Positions 50,601-56,600 of a stretch of 64,000 nt of DNA are shown piece after piece (within the stretch, counting starts at the first letter, position 1; every line of letters begins with the position of its first letter). The stretch covers positions 12,817,118 through 12,881,117 of the forward strand of contig NC_087078.1 in NCBI RefSeq assembly GCF_026151205.1, read 5' to 3'. A program made the translations under genes and the position numbers. This DNA comes from Bolinopsis microptera. Its lineage: Eukaryota; Ctenophora; Tentaculata; Lobata; Bolinopsidae. The notes beneath the pieces are model-generated. The model made no database searches. It was not told where the DNA came from and saw nothing but the letters and a program-made list of their open reading frames with translations.

Positions 50601-53600
50601 TAAAAATAGAGGCACATTGTCATATGAGGCCTTGTCATTCTTGAGCGTTTCGACATACATTAGGATATCAGTTTCATTTATTTCTTGGAATCTATCAAAT
50701 GAGATATTAGAAGTTCTAGGAGGTAAAAAATCAGTAAAACTAACTCTTTCAATATTGGGGGCCTGATTTTGTAATCTTGATCCAACATTTGCAAAATGAA
50801 AGTTAAATAGCTCAGGATCATTCTCATTGATAGTTTGACAATTAGTTGTACCAGGGGTCATATTTGATGCCAGTTTGATAGTTTTCCATATCCCTTTAAG
50901 ATCATTCTTGGCACTTTTAACTTGTAGATCATCGATTACATTAGCCTTTTTGCAGGTTTTAGCTAATTTATTTCTAATATTTCTCTGAATCTTGTAGCAA
51001 TCCCAGGCCTCATTACACTTTATACATTTGCTACATGTACCACATTTATTGCAATTTCCATTGTCTCTCTTATCCTTCTTTTTACGGAATTTCTTTAGAA
51101 GAAAATGTGTATGATTAATGGCATATAAAAGTTCAGTAGAAGGTTTATGTATGAACTTTTCATGCCTTTCTATGGTCTTGCAAGGGAAGAAGGTTGCATA
51201 TGCCTGTTCAATATGATGACAAAGGCCAGCTGTGATAGCTTCAACATCTGTACTTTCCAATAGTGGACTGTAATCAGAACAGGTGTCTAGATAGTCTAAG
51301 AATTGTTTAACATTACGTTTACAATGATTTCTAATTTCAACCTTCTCAAATTTAGGAGCTATAGGTACTTTACAATCTATCTCACACATAATAGCTTGAT
51401 GATCTCCAATACGTTCATCAAGAACAGAAGATTGGACAAAATCTGCATAACAGTTAGTGAATATTACATCAATAGTAGTCTGGGTAACATTGTCTCCACG
51501 TTTAGCAACTCTAGTTATCCCTTGAATGGTTTGAACTAGATTGTAACATCTCAAGGTCATATCTAATTTTTTGTACTGGGTGGATGAGATATTATTCTGG
51601 TCAATGTTTATATCCCCAATCCAGATAACCTTTTTCCCATTCAATTTTTTCATGCAAAAATGAATGTATTCAATAAAGTTATCAACACTGCAATAATTTC
51701 CAGAGCGATAGAAGCAGCAAACATTGATCTTGCTATTCTTAAGCTTCACCCATAATGCTTCAATGTTATCAAGCTTACTATCCATAACTAATTCTGTGTA
51801 AGCTAGTTTTTTGTTTATCATTAAGCCACAACCACCCCTAGAACTGTTTGGCCTGTCGCATCGCATAAGGTTGAAGGAGGAAGGAATATTTATGGTGTCT
51901 GTGTCAATAGTATCATTAAGATTCATCTCATTTAGGGAAAGTATGTCTAATTTATGATCTCTAATAAGTTGGGAAAGTTCATTACTTTTAGCTAAATTGA
52001 GAAGCCCTCCTTGAATGTTACAATGACCAATGCAGAGGTTGTGAAACCTATCAGCTGCATTATTAAAATTTGTCATCTTGTGAATCTTATTAATTCACAA
52101 TGGAATGAATAAAAGTTGTAAAGTTGTGTTTAAACTAAAAAACAGAATAAAAGCAGGTTGTATTTGTCTGGATGTCGTACTGTAAAAATAAAACTGATGG
52201 TAGGAGTGTTATGTCAGTATTCAGCAGTATTCTAATGGTGTGCATGATACTTCAAGTGCCTTGCTAATTTAACTATGCCATAATCATTGAGATGGACATT
52301 ATCCTCTCCATAACTACTAAAAAATGACGATTTTCTAAAGCCTTTCTTATCACTAAACAAGAAACGATTTGTCTCGGTTGAGAGCAGTTTTACATAGGTG
52401 TATTTTCTTTGCAGATTTGATATACACTCATTGATATCAGTTATAACCTTGTTTCTGGAGAAACTCTCCCGAGGTAATAAGTTAACAATTTTAATATCAG
52501 CTCCAGGTGCCCACTTGTGAAGGAAAAGTACAAGTTTTTCAATACAATTGTTTGTAAAGTCAAGAGCTCTAGCATCACCAGAAAAACTATCAGGGCACAG
52601 AAGTTTAGTCCTCATGTTGCGAGGGCTGTTCAGGATAGAGTCCACGTCATTTGTACCACACATAAGTACAATGCTTTTCACATTATTGGTATTAAGAGTG
52701 TCTTTTCTTACATCTGATTGAAACCGTTCATTGATTGCATTGGCTGTGGCACCAGGGTAGCTGAATACATGTGCCTCATGATGTTTGGACGATAGCTTTT
52801 CTCCCTCTAATTTGGAGAACATACTAGAGCTAATGTAGACACACAAAGATTTACCAGAATGTTCTATTGATCTAGTCTTAGGGGCCGAGGGTTCAGTGTT
52901 CTTAACTTGACTGGAAACATCAGACAGAGTAGATAAGGTTGCGCTGCCATCAATTAGGCGCAGAGTAATGCTTATTCTCATGGTTTCAGACTTGTCCTGG
53001 ATGAGGCTGTGTTCAAAGCTGGTCTGGGATTGTCTGGTCATATTCATTATGTCACCATGGGAGAGGGTGAGGTCAGCAATATGAGCTCTAAGTTTGGATC
53101 TGAAGCTTAGGACTCTAGTAGCCCCTAAAGAGATGGTGGAGATCATGGAGCCTGGTGAAATTGACCTCTCGTCATCCAAGTGAAAGGGAATTCCTTGCTG
53201 ACCATTTCTATACTTGGTAATCATAGCACTATTGAATTTCAATTTTGGGAACTGTGAGCGTAAGCGTTCTAGAATAGACTTTAGGTATGGATTTTCTGCT
53301 ACTGGCCTTGTGTTATGAAAGCCTCCATTGTAAGCGTAGGGAAAGTCCCCGTAATATGCAACTGCCCTATTCTCAAACTTATGAGTATAGTGGGTTTCTA
53401 TATCTAACTTGGCAGTGTCAACAAACTGAAAAACTCCTCGACTCAAATCTTGGTATGGATTGATAGAGTTGCTCACATCATTGTCACCATTTACAGAGTG
53501 TTTGGGATTTTCCAAATTGATAATTTCTGCTGAATGTTCACTGTCTTCTGCTAATTTGGATAGCTCTTGGGTTAACTCAGAAACAAGATGCAAGGATGAC

Positions 53601-56600
53601 CTATTACTGAGGGGAACATTGATAGACTGTTCACAGTGATCAGGTACCTGGGGCGACACAGGGATAAGTGAACCATCGCTGAGGGGAACTTTGAGTGCAC
53701 TGTCACTTTCTGATAATTGTTTATAGAGAAAAGAAATTTGCCGACGAAGACTATCATTCTCTCTTAATAGAGTTAAACAATTTGAACATTTATCAGTAGG
53801 ACAAGAGCCGTTGCTGGGGAATTTAACAGAATTCCCTCGATATCTCAGATTGTAATGTCTTGAGCCAACTGGTATTCTAGACATAGTTTATCACAAAAAG
53901 ATGCTACTGTTCGAAATTTAGTTAATGATTACAGTACCTTTGTAGCACTCCGGAGGATAAGGATAAGTGATGTCTGATAATCTTTAGGTGATAGATGGGA
54001 GTAAACTGCTTTAAAAACCGATGTCTGATAGTCCTTAGGATGTCTTTAAGATAACTTTATCGTGCAACAACCATTTACATTGACATACAACCTGTAATGG
54101 TCGTTACATTTACCGAGGCATTAGTTCCCACTGGGGGTCCTCAATAAATGTAATAGATTTGTAGTGTTGTAATTAGTTTAAAATATTTGATTTGAAAGTT
54201 CACTTTCATTTTCCCAGTTGATTTTTAATGAATACCATTTCAGAGTATGCATTTAAAGCGATCAATCAGAGTGGATTGACATCTATTGGGGTAAGGGGTA
54301 AGGACAGTGCATGTGTTATCACCCAACGAAAGATCCCAGACAAGCTGGTTGATGAGGAGACAGTCTCACATATCTACAGAGTTACTAAACATTCCGGTTG
54401 TGTTATGACTGGCATGATTGCTGATAGTGACATGCAGGTAAGATGAACAAATCACAGGGGAGGGGGACTCTGGAGACACCGCCTGGTGTTTTTGCAAATT
54501 ATTTCATGCCGCAACTTTTTAAATTATTTCACAGTGAAAAAGTGCAATCCATGCTAAAGACTTTGAATGAATTTGAGATCACCGATGTGTGGGTCTCATT
54601 ACTTGAATCGTTCTCGAAACTGTGTTTAAAAATGACCTCTTTTGCCAAATTGCTTCTATTCTAGGCTTTCTTCGGCAAAAATTGAATTCCTGTCTGTCCA
54701 AAAGCTTATAGAATTCCTTAGAAAATTAACAAACGAAACATAGGTTCGCTATGTTGGCCTGGGGGACTACGAACCCCCTTCACCCAGTTTCAAGCTTGAT
54801 GGAGAGGAAATGTCTGAAATTTGTCTGAACCATATTTATAACAGTCCATGTTTTTAACACCCATAATTTCCCCCCTCATAAAATTACCGACTAAGGTATT
54901 TACAATTGATTCTATCTTCAAACTTACCACCTTTGAATGATTCCCAAAAACATTCTTTGAAGTTTGATTGCGGAATAACAAAAAATGAATATTATGACAG
55001 TTTCGAAAAACAATGAAATATTTTCAAAGTGATAATAAATATGTGGCACACTTTCAATGCAGTTCCAGTCTGCGTTGCGGAGCTGTCCTTCCCTCTCTTC
55101 GAGGGTCAGCTCTTTTATTATTTATCTGAGGTGGCTATTGATAGAGAGTTTGAAGGCACGCCGTTCAAACGATGACCTATCTTGTAAGTCCGATAATGCG
55201 TGATCACAAGCGAGCCTCCATGCCAGTTCAAATAGGTTGTGCCTTAAGGTTGTCTTCTTCTCAATTATGCATCTTTCGATGATTTCGGACCTCAATTTCA
55301 GCTACCTTAGTAATAGCATAGTGTGAAATTCCGTATGTTTTGGACACTTGCCAAAAATATCTCCACTACTTACTCTCACCAAGTACAGTTAATATTCTGT
55401 ACTCACCACCTTATTTGTAATTCCAACAATTTTGAGATTTTGGCATACATGTATACAACTTACCTCGTTACTTATATATCAGTCAATAGATGTTGAGATT
55501 GGTGAGGCATATTTTTTGACAAGTGACAGTGATTCTAGGGTTTGATTATCTGATAGTTGATGCTGTTTTGGTTTATTGCTGTCACGTGACATACAATATG
55601 CCTCACCTCCCCACATCTATTGTTGATTGATTAGTTAGAATTGGATAGTAGAAGTTGTAAAATGCTAAGTTGTAATTCGTGGACTTGGGGGAGGGCGGTC
55701 TAAAAAAGCATTAAAAGTGTAAAAAAGTGAAATTTTTCTTCTCACCAAAGGTATGTCTTACCTTTGGAAATGTACTACATGTGAAGACTGATTGAAAAAT
55801 AATAGGAAAAAAGAAGATTTTTAGAAGATAACTTTATTCAGTGTAACTAAAAGTGTAAAATTGTGTAAAAAAATGTAGTGAACCCCCCTCCCCCCCCCCC
55901 CCCCCCTCGTGGACTTCAGTAAGTGGCTAGATCTTGTTCTAAATAACGTTTTAAATTACTTTTGTGAACAAACTGAAAACTTTGCACCGAGAAAAATAAT
56001 TCGAGCAAAGCGATCAGGGAAGAAGAAATGTTTTGAATGTATAGTAGTATACAATTAATAAAGATTGACGCAGATTCAAATCAATTATGTCCAAATGGTC
56101 AATCCATTGAAAATGGGGCGTTTTTTAAACGGTCAAAAAATTTACTAGCTGTTAAATGTAATCAAATTCAGTGTGGTCTTCAAAAATCAGCAAAAACTTG
56201 TCACCTAGCCCCACCCGTAGCTGTTTGACTTTCCCAGTACAAATGAAGCAACTGTACCGATACATTACCAACATAACACCTCAGGTATCTAGAGCTAGAT
56301 ACGAGGCGGCTGACTACAAGTACCACTACGGATACGAGATGCCTCCTGACATGATCTCCAAGCGTCTCGCTGACATCGGGCAATCCTACACACAGATTGC
56401 TCACATGCGCCCTCTCGGTTGCTGCCTGATAATGATTGGGTGGGACGAGGAAAAGGGAGCCCAGCTCTACAGGGTAGATCCTGCTGGCTTCTTCTGTGGT
56501 TTCAGAGCCTGCAGTGCTGGAACTAAGCAGACTGAGAGCAACAACTATTTGGAGAAGAAAATCAAGAAAAACAGTAAGTCTGTTTCAAACATAGTATTTC

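Follow-up and report, generated by a model that had tools for sequence, protein, structure and literature searches.

An AlkB-like dioxygenase domain fused to an SGNH esterase in ORF1 of a ctenophore LINE

What might a retrotransposon gain from carrying a nucleic-acid demethylase domain? The question is raised by a 64,000-nt stretch of the Bolinopsis microptera genome (contig NC_087078.1, positions 12,817,118 to 12,881,117 of the forward strand), here called the window, whose positions are used for all coordinates. Its minus strand holds an element with two open reading frames (ORFs). ORF1 (52232..53884, minus strand; 550 codons, ATG to TAG) comprises a basic N-terminus, a predicted coiled coil, an AlkB dioxygenase domain and an SGNH esterase domain. 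ORF2 (49101..52076, minus strand; 991 aa) follows downstream after a gap of 155 nt and combines an APE-type endonuclease (Pfam Exo_endo_phos, 3.6e-7) with a reverse transcriptase (RVT_1, 6.4e-36; FADD motif at residue 699). Judged by its sequence, the element is a non-LTR retrotransposon, a long interspersed nuclear element (LINE), with both frames open; among solved structures, the 11 PDB sequences matched by ORF2 are R2, LINE-1 and other reverse transcriptases, with no labelled CR1/L2 references among them. LINE ORF1 proteins are poorly understood. How the esterase class of ORF1 handles RNA was left open by a structural study (PMC3905857; cited, like the other papers below, for the passages available). 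The original prediction for this locus had read ORF1 as a fusion of AlkB to SGNH, and this was borne out more strongly than claimed: the fusion belongs to a whole protein family with an invariant AlkB active site.

The AlkB domain and its esterase partner

The AlkB-like 2-oxoglutarate (2OG)/Fe(II) dioxygenase domain spans residues 139-313 (52946..53470, minus strand), and all of the residues claimed for it are present on that strand, namely the Fe(II) ligands H235 and D237 in H235-L236-D237 (53174..53182), the third ligand H292 (53009..53011) and the 2OG/substrate arginines in R303-I-S-I-T-L-R309 (52958..52978). The Pfam search and the structure prediction that the original prediction had proposed as checks both agree with it. 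PF13532 (2OG-FeII_Oxy_2) matched at 67.8 bits against a curated cut-off of 31.2, and the predicted structure has the double-stranded beta-helix fold over the whole domain, with ALKBH2 as top match both by fold and by single-sequence search. A profile of the domain, searched up to E=1, matched ALKBH3 at 2e-23 and ALKBH2 at 1e-22, followed by ALKBH8 (1e-7), E. coli AlkB (1e-6), ALKBH5 (2e-5), a 'DNA N6-methyl adenine demethylase' chain (0.005) and ALKBH1 (0.43); FTO was absent from the 48 sequences found up to that value. The bacterial AlkB equivalog TIGR00568 was rejected as a candidate identity (17.8 bits against an NCBIfam cut-off of 231.05).

The esterase domain (residues 344-550, 52235..52855, minus strand) has the SGNH fold in the model and the SGNH residues S354 (52823-52825), N412, D528 (52301-52303) and H531 (52292-52294); blocks I, II, III and V each show their signature, respectively Ser, Gly, Asn and Asp-x-x-His. 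Pfam GDSL (PF13472) scored 22.6 bits against a cut-off of 32.9 in this ORF1 and was found at E up to 1e-3 in 26 of the 55 sequences in the model's input alignment, all 55 of which match 2OG-FeII_Oxy_2. Near the N-terminus, we read residues 34-60 (53705..53785, minus strand) as a putative coiled coil from a moderate-confidence AlphaFold2 helix (per-residue confidence, pLDDT, of 63-72 for the block), which starts at a C33-x-x-C36 pair after a basic tail (residues 1-33; isoelectric point, pI, 10.1). With a predicted coiled coil and an esterase in ORF1, and an endonuclease-reverse transcriptase ORF2 downstream, the element has the composition of LINEs with a type IV ORF1.

A search of 5.8 billion proteins, in which the 7991 candidates sharing most words were scored, returned at least 110 homologues of ORF1 with identities down to 26%. 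Four of the 110 carry an organism name, in each case the ctenophore Mnemiopsis leidyi, and the two of these nearest by identity share 49-50% over 38-39% of the query. Across all 110, aligned with MAFFT, H235, D237, E239, H292, R303, T307 and R309 are jointly unchanged in 109 (the claimed residues each in 109, with a single gap at H292, R303, T307 and R309), the sole exception being P0087, a Mnemiopsis gene model without the AlkB domain. The search for the same fusion in other proteins, also suggested by the original prediction, thus found AlkB in 109 of 110 homologues. On the esterase side, 100 of the 110 jointly keep the Ser, Asn, Asp and His, and 108 keep G378; eight of the remaining ten have gaps at one or more esterase sites, and P0050 and P0106 differ at the Asp/His. 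We therefore rejected an artefact or one-off, given at least 110 homologues, as well as a decayed AlkB passenger, given an active site invariant in 109 of 110.

The two domains also seem to travel together. When the esterase part was the sole query (residues 340-550), 75 of the 77 proteins found were annotated with AlkB; of the other two, P0233 retains the end of the domain and P0087 lacks it. This search covers proteins of about 303-962 aa, so that short esterase ORF1s without AlkB could be missed. Pairwise AlkB and SGNH distances are correlated (Pearson 0.89, Spearman 0.58; 102 of 111 rows), and none of 500 shuffles reached the Pearson value. Given the presence of AlkB in the homologues and the correlated distances, the fusion appears most simply inherited as one unit, and by this pattern of conservation the ORF1 proteins probably form a family under selection.

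Descent of the domain and comparison with known systems

Do these AlkB domains share one origin? A FastTree phylogeny was built from 39 of 108 LINE slices (three of 111 rows were left out for length before the slices were taken), 107 standalone hits of at least 150 aa (from the best 120 of 129) and two human sequences. All LINE rows fell on one side with an unstarred support of 84-91, 28 standalone hits standing among them, and the LINE label needs 12 changes on this tree. In an IQ-TREE analysis of 59 AlkB domains, which were chosen after the FastTree result had been seen and leave out rows of unclear place (e.g. P0218, P0129, P0176 and P0124), a clade of 28 coiled-coil-type ORF1s, six proteins of a second type and five short proteins was separated from 20 others with 99/98, the bootstrap not having settled. 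Read from the second tree, the element-type AlkBs are one lineage. With the short proteins nested inside it, the coiled-coil type alone makes no clade; 10% of the IQ-TREE bootstrap trees have a branch that sets it apart. The outgroup of 20 rows consists of human ALKBH2 and ALKBH3 and of AlkBs, bacterial ones included, that the LINE profile had retrieved, and a nearer cellular donor may for this reason be missing; neither tree has a row known as ALKBH5 or known by name as viral.

The second ORF1-like architecture, which is sister to the rest of the element-type clade in the IQ-TREE analysis, is seen in P0110 (704 aa), P0144 and P0137. In P0110 a PHD-like Cys/His cluster, recognized by eye and without a PHD match in a Pfam search, is followed by a coiled-coil-like stretch, AlkB and an SGNH serine block. 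The short proteins P0114, P0115, P0118, P0121 and P0122, of about 200 aa and without an esterase, lie inside the LINE AlkB clade and may stem from such elements or from an element of another type.

Type IV (esterase) ORF1s have been described for CR1 and L2 LINEs and, in PMC4120745, only from vertebrate groups, whereas here the four of 110 homologues that have an organism name all come from Mnemiopsis leidyi. Such elements, zebrafish ZfL2-1 among them, share with ours an N-terminal coiled coil, a poorly conserved linker, a C-terminal SGNH domain and an endonuclease-reverse transcriptase ORF2 (PMC3905857, PMC4120745); unlike the type IV ORF1s of CR1/L2, the present one has AlkB between coiled coil and esterase. 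Its AlkB domain has in common with human ALKBH2 and ALKBH3 the fold and the HxDxE...H...R-x5-R core, the HxDxE glutamate being invariant in the LINE family and common to both human proteins in the alignments with them. Unlike them, it is fused to LINE modules, has Thr for the Asn of the N-x-Y pair and belongs to a separate clade.

AlkB domains are also known from other elements with an RNA stage. A Ty3/Gypsy element of the orchid Phalaenopsis has an ALKBH5-like ORF2, a recent acquisition that demethylates N6-methyladenosine (m6A) in vitro (PMC9289625). It resembles our element as a retroelement with a captured AlkB demethylase and conserved cofactor residues, the in vitro activity being the orchid's; in contrast, it is a long terminal repeat (LTR) element with the domain in a separate ORF and of the ALKBH5 clade, while the present domain is an ALKBH2/3-type fusion in a LINE ORF1 whose family reaches down to 26% identity. 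Positive-strand RNA viruses of plants (Flexiviridae and others) carry AlkB domains thought to protect RNA (PMC544882). There too AlkB is carried by an RNA genome, and the LINE domain has fold matches to viral proteins; the viral domains, however, sit in replicase polyproteins and are read as recent integrations into several viruses (PMC544882), whereas the LINE set is one clade co-inherited with SGNH. Insect LINEs have captured a viral SF1 helicase, in ORF2 (TRAS) or ORF1 (Jockey), and are likewise non-LTR elements with a captured RNA-acting enzyme, although the enzyme differs and AlkB is unmentioned in the available text (PMC5563155). The mentions of AlkB in PMC4982230 and PMC6015446 refer, in the passages available, to host ALKBH1. 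Among the literature matches listed, a coverage outside which most subscription papers and Repbase Reports lie, none describes an AlkB domain in a LINE. Thus, type IV esterase ORF1s and AlkB in the orchid Gypsy were known before, and AlkB in a LINE ORF1 is apparently new, though an earlier mention may exist.

What the domain might do for the element

The intact active site in a large family suggests that element RNA may be cleaned or unmarked by the element itself before a copy goes into the genome. The functional part of the original prediction, in which the element may take alkyl marks off its own RNA or escape RNA methylation by the host, is compatible with these observations. ALKBH2 and ALKBH3 remove N1-methyladenosine (m1A) and N3-methylcytidine (m3C), pairing-face lesions that stop reverse transcriptases, which is why AlkB treatment serves tRNA sequencing. 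The profile values for ALKBH3 and ALKBH2 against that for ALKBH5 lean towards this chemistry over that of an m6A eraser, and since the life cycle of the element depends on reading through its own RNA, it would gain directly from such an enzyme in its own ribonucleoprotein (RNP). Here we propose that, in this LINE antisense within a PSMA6 intron, a type IV ORF1 gained a conserved ALKBH2/3-type AlkB domain that clears methyls from the element's own RNA or cDNA, a reading to which we give an even chance. The ORF1 protein would multimerise via its coiled coil on element RNA, and AlkB, using Fe(II) and 2OG, would oxidise away methyls on the Watson-Crick face (m1A, m3C), whether these sit on the bound RNA or on single-stranded cDNA, where they would otherwise stop reverse transcription. 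By analogy with ZfL2-1 (PMC3905857), the esterase might tie the particle to lipid membranes.

Several observations weigh against this proposal. The N-x-Y pair, which in ALKBH5 (Asn193/Tyr195) steadies 2OG (PMC9289625), reads T-K-Y here, with Thr223 replacing Asn; the Asn position holds T, H or Q in 103 of the 110 homologues, N in six and a gap in one, and the Tyr position Y in 100 and F in nine, the contact being an accessory one that we did not count as defining for AlkB membership. Inside HxD, residue 236 (53177-53179) is Ser in 103 of the 110 (Q in two, A in two, F, N and a gap in one each) and Leu solely in this copy. The whole-protein model has a predicted template modelling score (pTM) of 0.51, so that the arrangement of the ORF1 domains is not readable from it. 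The relatives, presumed from their shared architecture to be LINE ORF1s upstream of an ORF2, are known from proteins alone, and no locus was confirmed for them in viral contigs and GTDB genome contigs. A self-BLAST of the window found no second copy of the element that could speak for its mobility or its ends. Finally, ALKBH2, the top match, has a preference for duplex DNA, so that DNA could be the target.

How do other explanations compare? AlkB might instead serve epitranscriptomic evasion, an idea already put forward for the orchid Gypsy, whose ORF2 AlkB acts on m6A in vitro (PMC9289625): m6A that the host has deposited on element RNA, or another regulatory mark there, would be erased. The substrate ranges of AlkB proteins can shift, and one structure entry, going by its title, is a crystal of E. 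coli AlkB E136L together with m6A DNA. However, the domain of the orchid element groups within the ALKBH5 clade (PMC9289625), whereas the LINE domain is of ALKBH2/3 type by profile (ALKBH5 2e-5), and we consider this explanation unlikely.

ALKBH2, the top fold and single-sequence match, could also point to a role on the DNA side, in which cDNA or target DNA that is alkylated or methylated would be the substrate during integration, through ALKBH2-like repair or removal of N6-methyladenine (6mA). The profile nevertheless puts ALKBH3, which acts on single strands and RNA, level with ALKBH2, and 6mA-eraser chains match weakly ('DNA N6-methyl adenine demethylase' 0.005, ALKBH1 0.43). Even with the rise of 6mA on young mouse L1s upon loss of ALKBH1 (PMC4982230), this role seems to us rather unlikely. 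According to the available text of PMC3905857, a structural RNA-binding domain was lacking from every esterase ORF1p in RepBase; the AlkB domain, which is basic here (pI 9.4), may therefore also provide contact with RNA. That it is mainly a nucleic-acid-binding module which other esterase ORF1s lack, with catalysis secondary, is more doubtful still, as binding would not require metal and 2OG residues invariant in 109 of 110. Chance, an assembly chimera or an inert passenger domain, for which one might cite S77, L98, E197 and L236, changes private to this copy when it is set against P0001 and P0002, both near-identical to it, is highly improbable given AlkB in 109 of 110 homologues, its invariant active site and its co-divergence with SGNH.

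Returning to clearance of methyls from the element's own nucleic acid, a conserved demethylase domain in ORF1 is a concrete, assayable predicted activity on the retrotransposition particle, and it suggests that, in some animals, methylated bases in the RNA or cDNA of an element may hold back retrotransposition strongly enough for selection to favour an enzyme against them. Whether RNA methylation restrains LINEs thereby becomes directly testable. The wider picture of an old LINE lineage with an RNP-borne oxidative demethylase, stripping marks from its template that either block reverse transcriptase or were deposited by the host, we hold tentatively, at somewhat below even chances; if true, such an enzyme would do inside the particle what AlkB treatment does in tRNA sequencing, and would act in animals as a counter-defence where element RNA is methylated or alkylated.

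The element at its locus and other features of the window

Where does the element sit? It lies antisense inside the first coding intron (47712-54243) of PSMA6, encoding proteasome alpha-6, and the two frames together extend over 4784 of the intron's 6532 bases. The first coding exon of PSMA6 (47633..47711, plus strand) is followed by GTGAGT, the next (54244..54437, plus strand) by GTAAGA, and the third begins near 56285 on the same strand; the joined translation matches PDB PSMA6 chains at 5e-89. The 5' leader of the element probably lies within 53885..54243 (minus strand), with an imperfect 20-nt repeat at 53969 and 54020, and its 3' untranslated part within 47712..49100 (minus strand), with a 47-nt tandem repeat at 48885-48974, both boundaries being approximate; exact element ends and a target-site duplication were looked for and not found.

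Other mobile elements are probably present in the window. What looks by eye like a second LINE, in broken frames, lies at 35133-42853 (minus strand); its ORF1-like part ends in VLLCDST, resembling SGNH block I, and its two ORF1-like frames gave no Pfam match. Two open frames at 8802-10526 and 11167-14007 have a long C-terminal part in common, and the longer shows a weak GIY-YIG match (0.0013, below the cut-off); given this match and the shared C-terminal part, 8802-14007 probably holds closely successive Penelope-like elements, and a similar frame was seen by eye at 62497-63705. Copia-like gag-pol frames, with zinc knuckle, integrase and reverse transcriptase recognized by eye, lie at 15035-19082. 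Ribosomal protein L22e is encoded by a single open frame at 58523-58882 (plus strand; Pfam 3e-47), and a cluster of mutually similar frames, read by eye as C2H2 zinc fingers, occupies 7071-8102, 21480-22313 and 23077-24495 on the minus strand.

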